DNA of 64,000 bases from Paracoccaceae bacterium (GTDB lineage: Bacteria; Pseudomonadota; Alphaproteobacteria; Rhodobacterales; Rhodobacteraceae): NCBI GenBank assembly GCA_013003075.1, contig JABDLJ010000019.1, positions 89,759 through 153,758 of the forward strand, written 5' to 3'. The notes below the pieces were generated by a model. That model had not been told where the DNA came from and did no database searches. It saw only the letters and a program-made list of their open reading frames with translations. Made by a program: the position numbers and the translations under genes. Positions 18,480 to 57,053 of this stretch are shown piece after piece. The number at the start of each line of letters is the position of its first letter. Within the stretch, counting starts at the first letter, position 1.

Positions 18480-21179
18480 ATGCTAGGTTTCGGAACCATC
18501 GCCAAGAAGGTCTTTGGGACGCCAAACGACCGGTTGATCAAGGCCACGCAACCCTCGGTGGACGCGATCAATGCGCTTGAGCCGCAGTTCGAGGCCCTGT
18601 CCGACGAGGAGATCATCGCCAAGACCGAAGAGCTGCGCGGCCGGGCAAACAGCGGCGAGAGCCTCGAGGACCTTTTGCCCGAGGCGTTTGCCAACTGCCG
18701 CGAAGCGGCGCGCCGTGCGCTGGGTCTGCGGGCCTTCGATGTCCAGCTCATGGGCGGCATCTTCCTGCACCGGGGCAATATCGCCGAGATGAAAACCGGT
18801 GAGGGCAAAACGCTTGTTGCGACCTTCCCGGCTTATCTGAATGCGCTCACCGGCAAGGGCGTACATATCGTGACGGTCAACGACTACCTGGCCAAACGCG
18901 ACGCCGAATGGATGAGCAATGTCTACGGCGCGCTGGGCCTGACGACCGGCGTGGTCTATCCCCAGCAGCCCGAGGCGGAAAAGCACAAGGCCTATCGCGC
19001 CGACGTGACATATGCCACCAACAACGAGCTGGGGTTCGACTATCTGCGCGACAACATGAAGTCCGACCTGAAGGACATGAACCAGCTTCAGCACAACTTT
19101 GCCATTGTCGACGAGGTGGACAGCATCCTGATCGACGAGGCGCGGACACCGCTGATCATATCGGGCCCTGCGCAGGACCGCTCAGAGCTATACGTGACGA
19201 TCGACACGATCATCCCCGAAGTGCTGGACGTTCATTTCGATCTGGACGAAAAAACGCGCAATGTGACCTACACCGACGAGGGTAACGAGTTCCTCGAAGA
19301 GCGGTTGCACGCGGCGGGCATCCTGCCGGAAGAGCAGTCTCTTTACGATCCCGAAAGTACGACCATCGTGCACCACGTGAACCAGGGCCTGCGGGCGCAC
19401 AAGCTTTTCACCAAGGACAAGGACTACATCGTGCGCGATGGCGAGGTCGTCCTGATCGACGAGTTTACCGGCCGCATGATGCAGGGCCGCCGCCTGTCGG
19501 ACGGGCTGCACCAGGCGATCGAGGCCAAGGAGGGCGTGAACATCCAGCCCGAGAACGTGACGCTGGCCTCTGTGACCTTCCAGAACTACTTCCGGCTTTA
19601 CAACAAGCTGGCCGGGATGACCGGCACCGCCGCCACCGAAGCCGAGGAATTCGGTGAGATCTACGGCCTTGGCGTTATCGAGATCCCGACCAACCAGCCA
19701 GTCGCCCGCACCGACGAGCACGATCAGGTCTACCGAACCACGCGCGAGAAATACGAAGCGATCGTGAAAGAGATCAAGAAAGCCAACGAAAAGGGGCAGC
19801 CTGTCCTCGTGGGCACGACATCGATCGAGAAGTCCGAGTTCATCTCGGGGCTGCTGACCAAGGAAAGCATCAAGCACAATGTTCTGAACGCGCGCCAACA
19901 CGAGCAGGAAGCGCAGATCGTCGCGGATGCCGGCAAGTTTGCCGCGGTCACCATCGCCACCAACATGGCCGGCCGCGGCACCGACATTCAGCTTGGCGGT
20001 AATGTCGAGATGAAAGTGCTGGAGGCGCTGACCGCCGATCCAGAGGCCGATCCCGAGGCGATACGCTCCAAGATCGAGGCCGAGCATGCCGAGGAAAAGG
20101 CCAAGGTGATCGAAGCGGGCGGGCTTTATGTCCTGGCCTCCGAGCGTCACGAAAGTCGCCGTATCGACAACCAGTTGCGCGGCCGCTCGGGCCGCCAGGG
20201 CGATCCGGGGCGGTCTTCGTTCTACCTTTCGCTGGAAGACGACTTGATGCGGATCTTCGGGTCCGAGCGACTTGAAAAAGTGCTGTCGACGCTTGGCATG
20301 AAAGAGGGCGAGGCAATCGTTCACCCCTGGGTTAACAAATCGCTTGAAAAAGCGCAGGCGAAGGTCGAGGGCCGCAACTTCGATATCCGCAAGCAGCTTC
20401 TGAAATTCGATGATGTGATGAACGACCAGCGCAAGGTGATCTTCGGCCAGCGGCGTGAGATCATGGAAGCGGCTGATTTGTCCGAGATCGCGGAAGATAT
20501 GCGCCACCAGGTGATCGACGATATGGTCGACCACCGGATGCCGCCGAAAAGTTATGCCGACCAGTGGGATACCGAGGGCCTGCAAGGGGATATCAGCGAA
20601 AAGGTCGGGATTGATGTGCCGGTCGCGGACTGGGCCGATGAAGAGGGCGTCGACGACGACGAGATCCGCGAACGGCTCTACAAGGCATCGAATGAGTTCA
20701 TGGCGTCGAAGGCGGCGCAGTTCGGACCCGAAGCGATGCGCTCGATCGAAAAACAGATCCTGCTGCAAACGATAGACAGCAAATGGCGCGAGCATCTTCT
20801 GACGCTGGAGCATCTGCGCTCGGTCGTTGGCTTTCGTGGTTATGCGCAGCGCGATCCGCTCAACGAGTACAAGTCAGAGGCGTTCCAGCTCTTTGAAGGC
20901 CTGCTGGACGGTTTGCGCGAGGACGTCACGCAGAAGTTGTCGCAAATCCGTCCGATGAGCCAGGAAGAGCAGGACGAGATGATGCGCCAGATGCAGGCGC
21001 AGCGCGAGGCGATGCTGAAGGCCGCAGAGCCCGAGCGCGATGCAAAGGGCGCGGTCGGCGAAGCCGCCGAAGGCTTTGTCGAGGATGATCCCAGCACCTG
21101 GGGCGATCCGGGGCGGAACGACCGCTGTCCCTGCGGCTCTGGCAAAAAGTTCAAGCACTGCCACGGGCGGCTTGCCTGA
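18480..21179 (+). CDS. secA: Preprotein translocase ATPase SecA
   Basis: 899 residues from the ATG at 18480, preceded by GAGG; the track start at 18339 lies on the promoter. Recognised features: [13 protein letters not shown] at the N-terminus, Walker [12 protein letters not shown] (about 103), [18 protein letters not shown], the motor's second RecA domain with [13 protein letters not shown] and [10 protein letters not shown], and a C-terminal zinc-binding [14 protein letters not shown] that contacts SecB and lipids. It drives protein export through SecYEG. The two envelope genes that follow point the same way. Confidence 0.97.
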
Positions 21180-50374: not shown

Positions 50375-52069
50375 TTACGCGCCGGTCACCTTGACCGACG
50401 TGTTCGGTTCGACAGAGACGGTGCCGTTGCGCCGAATGTAGTTTTCCACGACATCCCAGATCGGCGGCCCTTCGGTGGCCTCGTTCACGCTGGCCCAGCC
50501 TGCGACAACGTAGGTCTTGGCCGGGTCGATCTTTTCGCCGGTCTTCAGGATCGTCATGTCGGTGATCCGGCTGCCCTGCGGCTGGCTGATGTCGATCTGA
50601 TAGCCCATGCCGCCGACCCGGACCATATCGCCGCCCTGCTGGTAATAGGGATCGGGGTTGAAGAGGTTGTCTGCCACGTCCTCGAGCACGACATGCAGGA
50701 ACTCTCCGGTGAACTCGGTGCGATAGGCTGCGGGATAGCTCATGGCCGTGGCGTTGAAGATATCCTCGCGGGTGATGTCCTGGCCTGGTAAAACGCTGGC
50801 GCCCCAGCGGAAGCCCGGCGACAGGGCGATATCGGCCTCGCGTTCTTCCAAAAGCGCATTGCAGATCAGATCGTCCCACGTCCCGTTGAAATTGCCACGG
50901 CGATAAAGCAGGCTTTCGGTCTGGCCGATCACCTCGCCAAGACGGTCCGCATACGGCGCGCGCTCGGTCTTGACCAAAGCGGTCATCTCCGGGTCCGGCG
51001 CGATCACGTCCGAGAAGATCGGAATCAGCTTGTGGCGCAGCTCTTTGACCTCGCCGTCGCGCACATCGAGGTCGACGCGAGCCAGGAACTTGCCGTGGCT
51101 TCCGGTCGCGATGAGATGCGTCTTGCCGACCAGCACAGGCTCTGGCAGCGCATCGTGCGTGTGCCCGGTCAGGATCACGTCGATCCCGTCGATCTCGCCG
51201 GCCAGCTTGCGGTCTACGTCAAAGCCGTTATGGCTCAGCAGAACCACGACCTCGGCGCCTGCATCCCGGACTTCTTGCACGACTTCGGCCATGCGTTCTT
51301 GGCGTACTCCGAAGCTCAGCCCGGGGAACATCCAGCCGGGGTTCGCGATCGGCATGTAAGGGAAGGCCTGCCCGATAACGGCAATCTTGGTGCCGCCGCG
51401 CTCGAACATCTGGTAGGGCTCATAGGCCGGCTCATCCCATTCGTTGTCGAAGATATTGGCGCCGAGGAAGGGGAAGTTCAGCTCGTTCTCGACGATCTCG
51501 GTGACCCGGTCGATGCCCAGCGTGAACTCCCAGTGCGAGGTCATCGCCTCGACGCCCAGGGCATTCATCGCACGCACCATGTCGCCGCCGTTCGTCTCAA
51601 GCGCCGTCAGGCTGCCCTGCCAAGTGTCGCCGCCATCCAGCAAAAGCGCATCGGGGCGCTCGGCCCGGATGGCGTTCACAACCGTGGCGATCCGGTCCAT
51701 GCCGCCCATCCGCCCATAGGTTCGGGCAAGCGCCGTGAAATCGTCATAGGTCAGCGCGTAATCCAGCGGGCTGCCGTCGGCGATACCGTAAAGCTTGCGG
51801 TAGTCGGCGCCGGTGATATGCGGCACAAACCCCTTGGCACCGCCGACGCCCAGATTGATCTGTGGCTCACGGAAATAGACCGGCATCAGCTGCGCATGGA
51901 TGTCGGTAATGTGGATCAGAGTGACATTTCCGAGTGTGTCGAACTCAAGCAGCTGGTCTTGGCTCAGCACCTGCTGAGCGGCCAGCCTGGACCAGTTTCC
52001 AAAGCCCGACGCGCCGTAAAGCGCTGACGTGGCCATCGCCACCTGAAGAAAATCACGACGGGAAATCAT
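50375..52069 (-). CDS. soxB: SoxB, manganese thiosulfohydrolase
   Basis: 564 residues with a Tat-type signal (SRRDFLQVAMATSAL). 5'-nucleotidase-like metal sites: ITDIHAQLMPVYF, LLDGGDTWQGS, TSHWEFTLG, VVLLSHNGFDVD and LTGHTHDA. SoxB hydrolyses sulfate from the SoxY-bound thiosulfonate. It is preceded by a terminator and by the third copy of the candidate SoxR operator, so it may start its own transcription unit. Confidence 0.96.
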   Translation of the reverse strand: MISRRDFLQVAMATSALYGASGFGNWSRLAAQQVLSQDQLLEFDTLGNVTLIHITDIHAQLMPVYFREPQINLGVGGAKGFVPHITGADYRKLYGIADGSPLDYALTYDDFTALARTYGRMGGMDRIATVVNAIRAERPDALLLDGGDTWQGSLTALETNGGDMVRAMNALGVEAMTSHWEFTLGIDRVTEIVENELNFPFLGANIFDNEWDEPAYEPYQMFERGGTKIAVIGQAFPYMPIANPGWMFPGLSFGVRQERMAEVVQEVRDAGAEVVVLLSHNGFDVDRKLAGEIDGIDVILTGHTHDALPEPVLVGKTHLIATGSHGKFLARVDLDVRDGEVKELRHKLIPIFSDVIAPDPEMTALVKTERAPYADRLGEVIGQTESLLYRRGNFNGTWDDLICNALLEEREADIALSPGFRWGASVLPGQDITREDIFNATAMSYPAAYRTEFTGEFLHVVLEDVADNLFNPDPYYQQGGDMVRVGGMGYQIDISQPQGSRITDMTILKTGEKIDPAKTYVVAGWASVNEATEGPPIWDVVENYIRRNGTVSVEPNTSVKVTGA

Positions 52070-52096: not shown

Positions 52097-52112
52097 ATGC
52101 GCATTTTTGAAT
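52097..52112 (-). promoter_or_regulatory. Candidate SoxR operator before soxB
   Basis: On the minus strand ATTCAAAAATGCGCAT, 27 nt before the soxB ATG and just after the soxA terminator. It matches 14 of 16 bases of the site before soxX. Confidence 0.5.
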
Positions 52113-52124
52113 ACGTGTCGGCCG

Positions 52125-52158
52125 AAAAAACCCGCGCCGGGATCAGTCGGCGCGGGTT
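52125..52158 (-). terminator. Intrinsic terminator between soxA and soxB
   Basis: AACCCGCGCCG / CGGCGCGGGTT, a perfect 11-bp stem with an 8-nt loop, followed on the minus strand by TTTTTT. It lies 7 nt after the soxA stop, inside the sox run. Confidence 0.8.
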
Positions 52159-52164
52159 CCTGTT

Positions 52165-53019
52165 TTAGTTGCGGACCGACGGTCCTTCGACCGATAGGCC
52201 GTTGCCACGTGAAGTGACGTAAAGCTCCAGGGCGATGAACTCGGGGCTTGCTACCGAGAACGTGTGTGCCCGCGTATCGCGAATGCAGCCGCGGAAGCGG
52301 TCATGCACCGTGTTCAGCTTGGTGTTCTTCAGACGGTAGGTCGGAAAGCCGTTGATCTGACCCTGGCTGAGATGGTCGGCGCGGATCATGTTGCCGTAAT
52401 TGTCCTCGTGGCAATTCGCGCAGGACAGTTCCAGCTGACCATAGCGGGTGTAGTAGATCTCTTTGCCCTTCTCCCAGGTGGACTGGGCCGGGCCATCGAT
52501 CGCCACATTGACCGGCAAGCCGCGCGACACCGACGCCAGAAGCGCGACCGTGTTGGTCATTTCGCCGCCGTTGTACTTCCACTCTTCGGCGCCCATCCGG
52601 GTCTTGCGGCAGTCGTTGATCTGCATCTCGATGGTGCGGACTTCGCCTGCACCTTCGTTCCACTTGGGATAGACCGCCTTCACGCCAGCCATATCTTCGA
52701 CATCGCCGTGACAAGAGGCGCAGCTCTCGCCCTCGGATCCGTCGACCGCGCTCCATTGCTCGATCCCCAACTCGACACCCAGCATACCGGGGTTGTCGAA
52801 GTCGTCCATCTGGACGGCCTGGGTTTCATCCGACCGGAAACGCCAGCCCGAATACACCGTATCGACGTATTCCAAATGCGCCGGGGCAGCCGCTTCGGTG
52901 ACGATCGCGATCTCTCCGTTGATCGTCAGACTGTCGTCGTCCGGCTCTGCCGTCGCAACGCCTCCAAGACCGACGGTCAACGCCAGTGCAGAGAGCAGTC
53001 CTCCGTTAAATCCGTTCAT
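52165..53019 (-). CDS. soxA: SoxA, c-type cytochrome of the SoxAX complex
   Basis: 284 residues with a Sec signal (LLSALALTVGLGGVATAE). Two CxxCH sites: SCASCHGD and LSCANCHED, so this is the diheme form found in Paracoccus-type SoxA. A further cysteine in RFRGCIRDTRAH is at the place of the axial ligand and substrate-binding cysteine. With SoxX it couples thiosulfate to the SoxY cysteine. Followed at once by a strong terminator. Confidence 0.94.
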   Translation of the reverse strand: MNGFNGGLLSALALTVGLGGVATAEPDDDSLTINGEIAIVTEAAAPAHLEYVDTVYSGWRFRSDETQAVQMDDFDNPGMLGVELGIEQWSAVDGSEGESCASCHGDVEDMAGVKAVYPKWNEGAGEVRTIEMQINDCRKTRMGAEEWKYNGGEMTNTVALLASVSRGLPVNVAIDGPAQSTWEKGKEIYYTRYGQLELSCANCHEDNYGNMIRADHLSQGQINGFPTYRLKNTKLNTVHDRFRGCIRDTRAHTFSVASPEFIALELYVTSRGNGLSVEGPSVRN

Positions 53020-53036
53020 GTATTTCCTCCCTGGAG

Positions 53037-53065
53037 CGGTCCTGCCGCCAAGGCGACAGGGACCG
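53037..53065 (-). promoter_or_regulatory. Hairpin between soxZ and soxA
   Basis: CGGTCCTG / CAGGGACCG (one bulged G) enclosing CCGCC / GGCG. No T-run follows, so it is probably an mRNA-stability or processing element. Confidence 0.4.
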
Positions 53066-53070
53066 GACCG

Positions 53071-53400
53071 TCAGCCTACGCTGATGCTTTTTGTTTCTGT
53101 GTAGACGTCGCCATCGTCGTCGTACCAGGTGAACGTGAAGTCACCGGATTCAGGGACGACCGCCTCGAACTCGAAGTAAGGGTTCGTCGAAATTGCCGGC
53201 TCGAGGTTCACGTCGATGACCATTTCGCCATTAAACTCGGCCGTGAACCGATTGATGATCGACCGGGGAATTACGTTGCCGTCGGCGTCTTTGCGCTGGC
53301 CCGATTCCATTTTGTGGCTGATCAGGGTTTTGATGATGATCACCTCACCTGCACTTGCAGATTTGGGGACCTTGACGCGGGGTTTGACACCAGATGCCAT
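53071..53400 (-). CDS. soxZ: SoxZ, sulfur-carrier subunit partner
   Basis: 109 residues, no signal peptide, as is normal since SoxZ is exported with SoxY. MASGVKPRVKVPKSASAGEV, LISHKMESGQRKDADGNVIPR and FTWYDDDGDVYTETKSI are typical. SoxZ holds SoxY in the carrier complex. Between soxY (19 nt) and soxA. Confidence 0.93.
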   Translation of the reverse strand: MASGVKPRVKVPKSASAGEVIIIKTLISHKMESGQRKDADGNVIPRSIINRFTAEFNGEMVIDVNLEPAISTNPYFEFEAVVPESGDFTFTWYDDDGDVYTETKSISVG

Positions 53401-53419
53401 GTCAGAATTCTCCTAATGC

Positions 53420-53836
53420 TTAGCCGCCGCAGCCGCCGATTGTGACCTTGACCGACTGCGAAGCCTGTACGAACGAGCCGTCCGCCATTTTGGCAATTGC
53501 AATCACGTCCTGAGTGCCTGCAAGGCGGATCCGGGTGGATGCCGATTGCGAAGCGGCGAGCGGGCCGAAGTTGAAGGTCACGACACCCGGGTTGGGGTTG
53601 CCGGCCGCAAGTACGACGATTGCCGTCGCACCTGGCGCGTTGACCTCGATCGGAACGGTGTTGCCGTTCTCGGCGATCTCGGGCGCGGTCAGCGTGATGC
53701 CGCCCTCGCCAACCTCGGCGCCGCCGGTGAAGGCCGCGATATCGTCTTCGGTCGCAGCCATGGCGCCGAAAGGCAGCGCCGCTGCGGCTGCCGCACCCAA
53801 CCCGATGGCGAGTGTCTGACGTCTTGTAACGTTCAT
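53420..53836 (-). CDS. soxY: SoxY, sulfur-carrier protein
   Basis: 138 residues from the ATG at 53836, chosen for its GGAG 8 nt upstream; the track start is in soxX. Tat signal (TRRQTLAIGLGAAAAAAL) for export with SoxZ. The C-terminus is VTIGGCGG: the cysteine on the flexible GGCGG arm carries thiosulfate-derived intermediates between SoxAX, SoxB and SoxCD. Confidence 0.95.
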   Translation of the reverse strand: MNVTRRQTLAIGLGAAAAAALPFGAMAATEDDIAAFTGGAEVGEGGITLTAPEIAENGNTVPIEVNAPGATAIVVLAAGNPNPGVVTFNFGPLAASQSASTRIRLAGTQDVIAIAKMADGSFVQASQSVKVTIGGCGG

Positions 53837-53862
53837 CGTCATTTCTCCATTCCTTTGTTCGA

Positions 53863-54333
53863 TCACTCTTTCAGCGTCAGCAGGAACGCGACAACGTCTT
53901 CGATCTGCTGTGCTGTCAGAAGCGGCTCCAGCTCGCCCTCGGCGGCCTTGCCGGTGAATGCGTTTCCAGGGCGAATGTAGCCGTCTGTCTTGTAGAATGA
54001 CGGCATCATCGTCTCGGGGAACATCATCTTCGCATTCGAAACGATGCCGCGCAGTTCCGCCTCGCTCCAGCGATCGCCCACGCCATCGAGCGCCGGCCCG
54101 ACCTCTCCGTGAAACGGCCACTCGGACAAAACGGACACTTCGTGGCAGGCAATACAATTGCCGGCACCCTTGTTCATAACAAGGCGCCCGGCCTCCGGAT
54201 CTCCGGGCTGGCCGGAAATCGAAGACGCAACTGCGCCGTCATCGAACGAAACGCTTGCCGGCATGATCGCTTCGGACCATCCAGCGCTTGCCGTGACGGC
54301 CAGAGCGGCCGACACCATCAACAGTTTTCTCAT
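53863..54333 (-). CDS. soxX: SoxX, c-type cytochrome of the SoxAX complex
   Basis: 156 residues with a Sec signal. One heme site NCIACHEV and a Met-containing segment ETMMPSFYKTDGYIRP. Works with SoxA. Its promoter region holds the second candidate SoxR operator. Confidence 0.94.
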   Translation of the reverse strand: MRKLLMVSAALAVTASAGWSEAIMPASVSFDDGAVASSISGQPGDPEAGRLVMNKGAGNCIACHEVSVLSEWPFHGEVGPALDGVGDRWSEAELRGIVSNAKMMFPETMMPSFYKTDGYIRPGNAFTGKAAEGELEPLLTAQQIEDVVAFLLTLKE

Positions 54334-54374
54334 AGTCCCTCCCTGAGACAGAGCTGAGTTTTGTTATTTTTGCT

Positions 54375-54404
54375 AGGGTAGACGACAGAATCGCGTTCAT
54401 GCAA
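54375..54404 (-). promoter_or_regulatory. Possible soxX promoter
   Basis: On the minus strand TTGCAT, 18 nt, TACCCT, 41 nt upstream of the soxX start. The candidate SoxR operator lies 6 nt upstream of the -35. Confidence 0.35.
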
Positions 54405-54410
54405 CGATAA

Positions 54411-54426
54411 ATTCGAATTTTTGAAT
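54411..54426 (-). promoter_or_regulatory. Candidate SoxR operator between soxW and soxX
   Basis: Minus-strand ATTCAAAAATTCGAAT, a near-palindrome with ATTC/GAAT ends. It is next to the soxW stop and upstream of the soxX -35. SoxR binding in the soxW-soxX interval is known for related Sox clusters. Confidence 0.6.
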
Positions 54427-54427
54427 T

Positions 54428-55006
54428 TCATCGTGTGTTGCCGTCGTCACGTTCTCGTATGCGACGCGCGTGATAGCGTTGGAAATCCTCTTCTGATTGA
54501 TCCAGATAGCGCTCTTCCTTGACCCAGGTCAGCAGGTCGAGCGTGGTTCCAGCGGAAAACGCGCCGGGCATGGTCGCAACCGATTGCGCCGTAGCGGATC
54601 GATCGGTGTCGATTTCCGGCGGCAGTAGAATCATCGTTGGCGTGAACAGAACGCCCCATTTCCGCGTCGCGTCCTTTTCGCTCAGCGTCTCGCCGTCGGT
54701 GTCCACGATCTCTATGTCGCCGTGCAGATTGATCTGGACCGGATAGTAGTCGTCTTCCAGCATCGTTTTGACCCGCGCATCGGTAAACGTCTTTTCGTGC
54801 ATATCCTGGCAATAGCTACAGCCGCGTTGTTCGACCAGGATCAGGATACGTTTGCCCTCGGCCGAAGCCTCGGCGGCATCTTCCTGAAGGTCCTTGAAGG
54901 TATCGCGCAGCCAATCGGCCTTGTGCAGACCATCGTCGCCCAGTTCGGCAGCCGCTACGGGAAGCGCCAGGCAGATTGCCAGGGCGGCATGCAAAACTCT
55001 TTTCAT
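54428..55006 (-). CDS. soxW: SoxW, periplasmic thioredoxin
   Basis: 192 residues from the ATG at 55006 with GGAGG upstream. A Sec signal ends near PVAAAEL. The CxxC active site is CSYC in VEQRGCSYCQDMHEK. The cis-proline is in LFTPTMILL. SoxW is thought to receive electrons from SoxV and keep Sox proteins reduced. 16 nt after soxV. Confidence 0.9.
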   Translation of the reverse strand: MKRVLHAALAICLALPVAAAELGDDGLHKADWLRDTFKDLQEDAAEASAEGKRILILVEQRGCSYCQDMHEKTFTDARVKTMLEDDYYPVQINLHGDIEIVDTDGETLSEKDATRKWGVLFTPTMILLPPEIDTDRSATAQSVATMPGAFSAGTTLDLLTWVKEERYLDQSEEDFQRYHARRIRERDDGNTR

Positions 55007-55022
55007 GTAAGCCTCCTTCGGT

Positions 55023-55754
55023 TCATCCAAGCTGCGGCCAGTAAAGCACCATCCAGTTGGCAATGACATTCACAGTTTCGGTGGCGATCAGAACGCCGAA
55101 AAGAACCAGCATTGCGCCCATGACCTTCTCGATCGTCCCAAGATGCCGCCGAAACCCCTTCATCCAGCGCAGGAACGGGCCGACGAAAAGGGCGGCGACG
55201 ATGAAGGGCAGCGTCATTCCGACACCGTAGACAAAGAGCAAAAGCGCGCCGCGCGCCGCGGTTTCGGTCCCTGCTGCAGTGAACAGGATCGCAGCCAGAA
55301 CCGGACCGACGCACGGGGTCCAGCCAAAGGCGAACGCCAGCCCGATGACGAAGGCGCCAAGATAGGTGACGTTCGATGTATCGCCCACGTCCGCGCGCAA
55401 CTGGCGATACAGGATCCCGATCTTGATGATCCCCAGGAAGTGCAGGCCCATCGCGATGATGATCGCCGCCGCGATCCAGCGCAGAACGTCGAACCAGTCG
55501 CGGAAAACCTGGCCGAACACGCTTGCCGTTGCGCCAAAAGCCATGAAGACCATGATCACCCCGGCCGCGAAAAACACCGAAGAGACGACTGCGCGCCGCC
55601 GCACGCTGGCATCGATCGGGCCTTCAGCGGTCAGCCGGTCCATCCCGACCCCCGCCAGATAACTGAGGTAAAACGGGACAATCGGCAACACGCAAGGCGT
55701 CAGAAACGACATAAGACCAGCAAGACCGGCCCAGGCCAAAGACACATCCAGCAT
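55023..55754 (-). CDS. soxV: SoxV, CcdA-type thiol electron transporter
   Basis: 243 residues from the ATG at 55754. Six-helix CcdA/DsbD-like membrane protein: LMSFLTPCVLPIVPFYLSY and FGWTPCVGPVLAAILF carry the two redox cysteines. It moves reducing power across the membrane to SoxW and SoxS. The divergent soxS gene is 73 nt away, with the first candidate SoxR operator between. Confidence 0.93.
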   Translation of the reverse strand: MLDVSLAWAGLAGLMSFLTPCVLPIVPFYLSYLAGVGMDRLTAEGPIDASVRRRAVVSSVFFAAGVIMVFMAFGATASVFGQVFRDWFDVLRWIAAAIIIAMGLHFLGIIKIGILYRQLRADVGDTSNVTYLGAFVIGLAFAFGWTPCVGPVLAAILFTAAGTETAARGALLLFVYGVGMTLPFIVAALFVGPFLRWMKGFRRHLGTIEKVMGAMLVLFGVLIATETVNVIANWMVLYWPQLG

Positions 55755-55771
55755 ACAAGTTGCCTTGATCA

Positions 55772-55787
55772 ATTCACATATTCAAAT
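55772..55787 (+). promoter_or_regulatory. Candidate SoxR operator between soxV and soxS
   Basis: ATTCACATATTCAAAT, 13 of 16 bases shared with the soxX site. It overlaps a possible soxV -10 (TTGTCA-17-ATATGT on the minus strand) and fills the spacer of a possible soxS promoter (TTGATC-17-TACGTT), so one site could silence both. Confidence 0.6.
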
Positions 55788-55827
55788 TACGTTGTATTTG
55801 ACAAATCAGTCAATCGGGTCTTTGAAC

Positions 55828-56196
55828 ATGCGCTGGATTGCCTCGCTGCTTACTGCTCTTTTCCTGCTTCCGGGCGGCAGTTCAGATGCGGCACAGCTGG
55901 TCTTGGTCGAAGAGCAAGGCTGCATCTGGTGTGCAGTCTGGAACAACGAGATTGCGCCGATTTATCCCAAGACCGCAGAAGGTAGATTCGCTCCGCTTCG
56001 GCGGATCGATATCCGGGAACCGTTCCCTGACGATCTGAAATTCGCCAGCCGCCCGGTTTTCACGCCCACGTTCATACTTGTGGAAGACGGCCAGGAAGTT
56101 GCTCGTATCGAAGGCTATCCGGGCGAGGATTTCTTCTGGGGTCTGCTGGAACGCATGCTTCTCGATCACACCAACTACGAAGGGCCAACATCATGA
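55828..56196 (+). CDS. soxS: SoxS, periplasmic thioredoxin-like protein
   Basis: 122 residues from the ATG at 55828 (signal RWIASLLTALFLL). The redox motif is CIWC in VEEQGCIWCAVW; the cis-proline is in VFTPTFILVED. In Paracoccus SoxS reactivates SoxYZ by reducing off-cycle disulfides. Its stop overlaps the start of the GlcG/HbpS-like gene by 4 bp. Confidence 0.9.
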   Translation: MRWIASLLTALFLLPGGSSDAAQLVLVEEQGCIWCAVWNNEIAPIYPKTAEGRFAPLRRIDIREPFPDDLKFASRPVFTPTFILVEDGQEVARIEGYPGEDFFWGLLERMLLDHTNYEGPTS

Positions 56197-56696
56197 CACG
56201 ACTTTGCACAGCCGCCATACTCAGCGTTGTCCTTGCCGCTCCGGCGGTGGCTCAGGACGAAGAGCCACTGGTCATATTCAAGATGCTGCGCCCTGAGCTT
56301 GCGCTCAAGATGGCGCAGACCGCGCTGGAAAACTGCCGCGAGGCGGGGTTTCAGGTCGGTGTTGCGGTTGTCGATCGCTTCGGCGTGCCGCAGGTCTTTC
56401 TGCGCGACCGTTTTGCCGGCCCGCACACGTCCGAGACGGCAACGCGCAAGGCCTGGACCGCCGTCAGTTTCCGCGCCAGCACGCTTGAGCTGGGCAAGGT
56501 GATGAACACCGAGTCCGACAGCTTCGGTGTCCGGTTCATCAGCGACGCGCTGCCACTGGGCGGCGGGATGCCGGTACTTGACGGCGATGGCAGCATTGTC
56601 GCAGGTATTGGCGTGTCAGGCGCCCCAAGCCCCGCCGCCGATGAGGTTTGCGCCGAGGCGGGCATCGAAGCTATCGCCGACGAAATCGCCTTCTAG
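56193..56696 (+). CDS. Exported GlcG/HbpS-like protein
   Basis: 167 residues with a Sec signal (AILSVVLAAPAVAQD). The body matches the GlcG/HbpS fold: ALENCREAGFQVGVAVVDRFG, ATRKAWTAVSFRASTLEL, GGMPVLDGDGSIVAGIGVSGAP, ADEVCAEAGIEAI. Some members bind heme; the function in Sox clusters is unknown. It lies between soxS and soxR and is coupled to soxS, so it belongs to the same transcript. Confidence 0.82.
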   Translation: MTRLCTAAILSVVLAAPAVAQDEEPLVIFKMLRPELALKMAQTALENCREAGFQVGVAVVDRFGVPQVFLRDRFAGPHTSETATRKAWTAVSFRASTLELGKVMNTESDSFGVRFISDALPLGGGMPVLDGDGSIVAGIGVSGAPSPAADEVCAEAGIEAIADEIAF

Positions 56697-56705
56697 GAGA
56701 GCCCG

Positions 56706-57053
56706 ATGGTTCTGCCCGTCATATCCGAAGACATTACCGATGCGGAAATTGAGCGGATGATGGTCAGCGCCTGCGACGCTGCCAATTTCCTGAAGGCAAT
56801 CAGTCACGAGGGCCGCCTGATGATCTTGTGTCACCTGGCGACGGGCGAAAAATCGGTCACCGAGCTGGAACGGCTGCTGTCGGCCAGGCAGGCCGCGGTC
56901 TCGCAGCAGCTCTCGCGTTTGCGGATGGAGGGACTGGTCCAGCCCCGACGCGACGGAAAGACCATCTACTACAGCCTCACCGACAAGCGCGCGACCAAGA
57001 TGCTGGACGTCGTCTATGATCTGTTTTGCGAAAAGACAGGGAACGATGTCTAA
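56706..57053 (+). CDS. soxR: SoxR, ArsR-family repressor of the sox genes
   Basis: 115 residues with the ArsR winged helix (LERLLSARQAAVSQQLSRLRMEGLV, then RRDGKTIYYSL). Cysteines occur at 23, 42 (MILCHLATG) and 108 (DLFCEKTG). The 42/108 pair has the position and spacing of Cys41/Cys107 of SqrR, which form a tetrasulfide with persulfides and release DNA. SoxR is known to repress sox genes from the soxS-soxV and soxW-soxX intervals. Preceded by AGGAGA. Confidence 0.92.
   Translation: MVLPVISEDITDAEIERMMVSACDAANFLKAISHEGRLMILCHLATGEKSVTELERLLSARQAAVSQQLSRLRMEGLVQPRRDGKTIYYSLTDKRATKMLDVVYDLFCEKTGNDV

Follow-up and report, generated by a model that had tools for sequence, protein, structure and literature searches.

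Three predicted SoxR operators in the sox locus of a Paracoccaceae bacterium, one of them spaced regularly from a hairpin between soxA and soxB

The sox locus and its three 16-bp sites

We analysed a 64,000-nucleotide stretch of DNA from a Paracoccaceae bacterium (the window), which carries a sox locus; the sox system is a main route of thiosulfate oxidation in marine Rhodobacteraceae-type bacteria. The genes soxB, soxA, soxZ, soxY and soxX were called by NCBIfam equivalogs, and these calls, together with that of an ArsR-type regulator, upheld the gene assignments of an earlier note on this DNA. The divergent side of the locus holds soxS, a heme-degrading-domain-like gene, the ArsR-type regulator and a YeeE/YedE-like protein (Table 1). 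The gene between soxS and soxR (56193-56696), weakly similar to heme-degrading-domain proteins, was present in 26 of 101 clusters (see below).

Table 1 Genes, sites and putative promoters of the sox locus, in window positions
Feature	Position	Strand	Remarks
soxB	50375..52069	-	TIGR04486, above cut-off
soxB-side operator-like site	52097..52112	-	ATTCAAAAATGCGCAT; 2 mismatches vs soxX site; PSSM 8.9 bits
GC-rich hairpin and U-tract after soxA	52123..52158	-	stem-loop 52158-52129, T-run 52130-52125
soxA	52165..53019	-	TIGR04484
soxZ	53071..53400	-	TIGR04490
soxY	53420..53836	-	TIGR04488
soxX	53863..54333	-	TIGR04485
soxX promoter (probable)	54375..54404	-	TTGCAT (54404-54399), 18 bp, TACCCT (54380-54375)
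soxX operator (predicted)	54411..54426	-	ATTCAAAAATTCGAAT; exact ATTC-N8-GAAT; PSSM 24.2 bits
soxW, thioredoxin-like	54428..55006	-	position and reading frame; conserved gene order; no NCBIfam model
soxV, CcdA/DsbD-like	55023..55754	-	
soxS promoter (probable)	55765..55793	+	TTGATC, 17-bp spacer holding operator, TACGTT
soxV/soxS common operator (predicted)	55772..55787	+	ATTCACATATTCAAAT; 3 mismatches vs soxX site; PSSM 26.1 bits
soxV promoter (probable)	55786..55813	-	TTGACT (55813-55808), 16 bp, CGTAAT (55791-55786), overlaps operator
soxS, thioredoxin-like	55828..56196	+	
soxR, ArsR/SqrR-type repressor	56706..57053	+	cysteine pair C42, C108

The 16-bp near-palindrome that the earlier note had described at three places in this locus was recovered at each of them, and two of the copies share with the one before soxX the claimed 13-14 of 16 positions. 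The pattern ATTC-N8-GAAT is exact in the soxX site and altered in one half in the other two (AAAT, GCAT); the soxB ATG lies 27 nt beyond the soxB-side site. Dinucleotide shuffles of the window gave an expectation of 0.26 such sites, and three were reached in 0 of 100 shuffles. The genome scan that had been proposed as a check, run over the assembly to which the window belongs (2.47 Mb, 65% complete) on both strands and with up to 3 mismatches, returned just the three sox sites, and the pattern read backwards, as a control, matched once. Exact ATTC-N8-GAAT occurs at seven sites of the assembly, six of them outside sox and with GC-rich middles unlike those of the sox sites. A PSSM match at 20403 lies within secA and was taken as chance. 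Two of the three sites occupy intervals said in the earlier note to be bound by SoxR of relatives, and this agrees with the binding regions that Rother et al. reportedly located in 2005, namely the soxS-soxV and soxW-soxX gaps.

Just one SoxR-like gene, that at 56706-57053, was found in the assembly at its 65% completeness. The best solved match of its product was a chain set, 13ct/6o8l and others (E 3e-37), which we take to be R. capsulatus SqrR; both an ArsR fold and a cysteine pair were found, C42 and C108 aligning with cysteines of the matched chain. The sulfide-responsive repressor SqrR recognises ATTC-N8-GAAT (PMC9774250), and in Hyphomicrobium a SoxR of this same type senses sulfane sulfur (PMC10451225); the latter paper also cites SoxR binding regions in the sox clusters of Paracoccus and Pseudaminobacter. 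All three sites are very probably operators of the cluster's own SoxR, which would be a SqrR-like repressor of the ArsR type that senses sulfane sulfur.

Conservation of the sites and of the promoters around them

The window was compared with 100 sox clusters from relatives, nearly uniform in gene order, and counts are given per 101 clusters; since the loci were picked by similarity to the window SoxB and are mutually related, these counts are not independent events. The motif was derived by expectation-maximisation with the soxV/soxS and soxW/soxX gaps as sole input, the soxA-soxB gap being unseen; unguided, it settled on ATTCA-N7-GAAT(T) (17.6 bits). At a threshold of at least 6 bits, a site was found in 67 of 101 soxA-soxB gaps, in 90 of 99 soxV/soxS gaps and in 97 of 98 soxW/soxX gaps. 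The background rate was 4.2% of dinucleotide shuffles of the soxA-soxB gaps and 0 of 402 coding stretches, and at the same threshold the gaps before soxY, soxZ and soxA gave 0 of 101 each and the gap before soxW 1%. Among 70 further named loci the soxB site was present in 46, with about five more slightly below threshold at the right spacing, and records of Ruegeria, Phaeobacter, Salipiger, Sedimentitalea, Roseovarius and Sulfitobacter carry it. The site is thus conserved in related sox loci in both sets, a point on which the earlier note had made its proposal depend.

The soxB site was the weakest of the three in 48 of 66 clusters, and 32 of the 67 soxB sites had GCAT instead of GAAT. Their strongest symmetry is centred as in the soxX site. 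Many of them also hold a second overlapping inverted repeat, ACACATGCGNATGTGT, at operator positions 4-19; this symmetry is weaker, its centre falling 4 bp downstream of that of ATTC-N8-GAAT, and as an RNA hairpin (centre 11.5) it was rejected, there being no covariation. Seven relatives lacking the operator (L057, L059, L065, L070, L073, L084 and L113) have another conserved run after the hairpin, ATTCGTTTGTTCCTTT or nearly so, and several operator-less relatives differ in the soxV/soxS gap as well, ACATATaaaaatcgtaATATGT; it is possible that these have an altered type of operator or another element.

Alignments anchored on the operator gave TTGACG-16-CATAAT with the operator over the -10 for soxV, TTGAnn-17-TATGTT with the operator as the spacer for soxS, and TTGCGT-18-TACGGT directly downstream of the operator for soxX. 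The claim that the first site overlaps core elements of both divergent promoters was borne out by this conservation, the operator filling the soxS -35/-10 spacer and overlapping the soxV -10. Within 55765-55813 the promoters of soxS and soxV face each other, overlap and have one operator in common, an arrangement conserved in relatives, so that a single SoxR dimer should shut both. These two sites would accordingly be ordinary promoter operators, one common to soxV and soxS and the other just upstream of the soxX promoter.

At soxB, the 67 operator-anchored sequences conserve the hairpin, the U-tract and the operator and have no conserved -35/-10. In rank of consensus promoter score soxB stood at 0.47, as shuffles do (null 0.5), against 0.06 for soxV, 0.12 for soxS and 0.38 for soxX. 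The soxX promoter, the best-scoring pair in the window and kept in position in relatives, is weak by score yet fixed in position in 51 of 97, and for this reason a weak promoter at soxB could escape the score alone; alphaproteobacterial promoters can be weak and match the consensus poorly, and a non-canonical promoter at soxB is conceivable. A sigma-70 scan of the window gave 4 promoter-like matches against 3.0 expected, none of them at soxB, where the best candidate in the window was a poor one (TTTTTT-16-AAAAAT, 2.8 bits). The T-tract as a -35 with a -10 inside the operator was also considered and rejected, as the hexamers do not fit. The third SoxR-controlled promoter suggested in the earlier note was therefore not borne out at soxB, whereas those of soxV, soxS and, by position, soxX are plain.

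The hairpin, the U-tract and the soxB site

A GC-rich hairpin with a U-tract follows soxA, so that the soxB site does lie beside an intra-locus terminator and soxB is set apart from soxA, as had been claimed. In the window the final G-C pair of the stem is 18 bp before the operator and the U-tract has 6 T in 8; the whole soxA-soxB gap folds at -39 kcal/mol (z -2.85). The distance from stem end (last G-C pair) to operator was 15-18 bp in 57 of the 67 site-bearing clusters, most often 17, whereas about 6 clusters would fall in this range if placement were uniform; in the further loci it was 15-19 bp in 37 of 46. This fixed spacing could in part reflect common descent. The distance from operator to soxB ATG varied from 11 to 65 nt among the same 67 clusters, and distances of 11-14 nt were met in several genomes. 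In two genomes, L205 and L213, the operator ends right at the soxB ATG (0 nt) with a hairpin spacing of 17 bp (12 in L213 by the automatic measure, which called the stem end differently); their sites scored 5.8 bits, slightly sub-threshold, and 8.9 bits, respectively. A promoter starting at or after the operator is impossible in these two, since the operator abuts the ATG.

A U-tract, defined as at least 4 T in 8, accompanied the hairpin in 59 of 67 clusters with the site versus 10 of 34 without it, whereas hairpins were present in both groups and their stability was alike (medians -21.7 and -22.0 kcal/mol with and without the site). On a quick tree of concatenated SoxX, Y, Z and A, with SH-aLRT support only, the state of the site changed at least 19 times and that of the U-tract 26 times. 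Among independent pairs drawn from supported branches, site and U-tract agreed in direction in about 7 of 10 and 8 of 16, and opposite pairs were virtually absent (about 7:0 and 8:0; median p values 0.016 and 0.008). The contrast in U-tracts was weaker among the further loci, where 14 of 24 without a scored site keep at least 4 T, several of these having sub-threshold sites. Of the SoxR regulon with a separate soxB unit put forward in the earlier note, the motif, which is the SqrR sequence, the conserved soxB site and the terminator setting soxB apart all stood; its third promoter was not supported.

Possible roles of the soxB site and comparison with known systems

We tentatively favour the reading, drawn from sequence comparison, that SoxR controls passage through the soxA-soxB terminator. 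By position the soxB site is downstream of soxX, and this third operator would be tied to the terminator, with hairpin, U-tract and operator acting together and about 17 bp from stem end to operator. A polymerase from soxX that reaches the U-tract would touch the operator with its leading edge, and there bound SoxR would block it or lengthen its halt, so that basal transcripts would end before soxBCD. Removal of SoxR by thiosulfate-derived sulfane sulfur would leave the intrinsic terminator alone to set the read-on into soxBCD. What inclines us to this reading is the fixed register of the hairpin, the absent promoter elements and the contact of operator and ATG. On the other side, SoxR would also shut the soxX promoter and few polymerases would reach soxB, so that a roadblock would act mainly on leakage; the soxB site, usually the weakest of the three, would moreover empty first. 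In addition, since intrinsic termination reportedly includes a forward step of the polymerase (Santangelo and Roberts 2004, cited in PMC3913778), a protein bound shortly beyond a terminator could also impede RNA release, which makes it uncertain whether SoxR would lower or raise read-through. Leakage and RNA release are the objections that keep our preference a cautious one and an ordinary promoter a serious contender.

That contender, the view of the earlier note, is that a promoter of its own, repressed by SoxR, serves soxB from behind the terminator, which we regard as somewhat less probable though quite conceivable. A separate unit would need both terminator and operator, and once the U-tract was lost soxB would be read from soxX and the operator would decay; the joint coming and going of operator and U-tract is therefore explained equally well by an own promoter and by control at the terminator. 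The logic would also be simpler, soxBCD having its own inducible supply, soxS offers a case with the operator inside the promoter spacer, and in some relatives, L037 and L043 among them, the operator is followed immediately by a TATAAT-like run. Against it stand the lack of a conserved -35/-10 in the anchored sequences with scores equal to those of shuffles, the short or absent distances from operator to ATG, which exclude a start at or after the operator in those genomes, and the fixed spacing of hairpin and operator, which an own promoter does not need. It is improbable that the soxB site is an auxiliary operator that, through looping or cooperative binding, helps SoxR to occupy the soxX operator at a distance of 2.3 kb. 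Such a site would often be weaker than the main ones, as the soxB site is, and the SoxR of Pseudaminobacter is reported, according to the title of Mandal et al. 2007, to bind cooperatively, but the 17-bp hairpin register and the joint loss of U-tract and site would go unexplained. Slighter still is the chance that another regulator binds the element or that it acts as RNA near the soxB start: the frequent GCAT half and the second symmetry 4 bp on would suit it, but the strongest symmetry is centred as in the soxX site, the soxB site is recovered by a motif trained only on the two other SoxR gaps, clear covariation and an Rfam match were both lacking, and the assembly, at its stated completeness, has no second SoxR-like gene.

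Returning to control at the terminator, the arrangement may also be, though we put this a shade more guardedly, a conserved terminator-operator module in which a ligand-sensing repressor, bound to the DNA roughly a polymerase footprint beyond an intrinsic terminator, sets the passage from soxXYZA to soxBCD, that is, attenuation by a DNA-binding repressor and not by RNA. If SoxR does gate the terminator, this would be a natural and widely conserved case of a repressor tuning the ratio of two parts of an operon, by way of elongation and not initiation, and it would be simple to test. As the operator is absent from the studied Paracoccus strains, the regulation of soxBCD has probably gone unnoticed in most of the group.

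The SoxR operators of Paracoccus pantotrophus and Pseudaminobacter salicylatoxidans resemble those described here in gene order, in the two promoter gaps and in repressor family, and two of the window's three sites fall in their operator gaps (soxS-soxV, soxW-soxX). P. pantotrophus, the organism in which SoxR was studied, and P. versutus have weak soxV and soxX sites, no soxB site and a soxA-soxB hairpin without a U-tract; that a third operator was not met with in P. pantotrophus would follow from the missing soxB site. The literature searched, to which the original P. pantotrophus and Pseudaminobacter SoxR papers did not belong, held no report of a soxB operator. The SoxR of Hyphomicrobium denitrificans is likewise responsive to sulfane sulfur and binds at several gaps within the sulfur-oxidation region (PMC10451225); with its different gene order (soxYZB divergent from soxXA) that organism does not have the soxA-terminator-operator-soxB module. 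Nearly all of 20 clusters from other alphaproteobacterial families lacked the soxB site, and the module therefore looks like an invention of the window's family; several of these clusters had SoxR-like sites elsewhere. In one of another family (L235) a U-rich hairpin followed by ATTCGAAGTACGGAAT lies about 15-50 nt upstream of soxB, with ATTC-N8-GAAT some 23 nt after the hairpin, possibly an independent origin of the same arrangement.

SqrR of R. capsulatus and YgaV of E. coli have the identical operator pattern ATTC-N8-GAAT and two sulfur-sensing cysteines, but their sites are in promoters, whereas the soxB site is behind a terminator and often has a GCAT half. We know of no fixed operator-terminator pair conserved across a family. 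Roadblocks have been reported for ArsR, PurR, GalR, CcpA and CodY (PMC10310618; PMC4132739). In repressor roadblocks such as those of LacI, CodY, CcpA and ArsR the operator is in the transcribed region and expected to halt the elongating polymerase, as that of soxB, by position downstream of soxX, would be; the soxB operator differs from them in being held in register with an intrinsic terminator.
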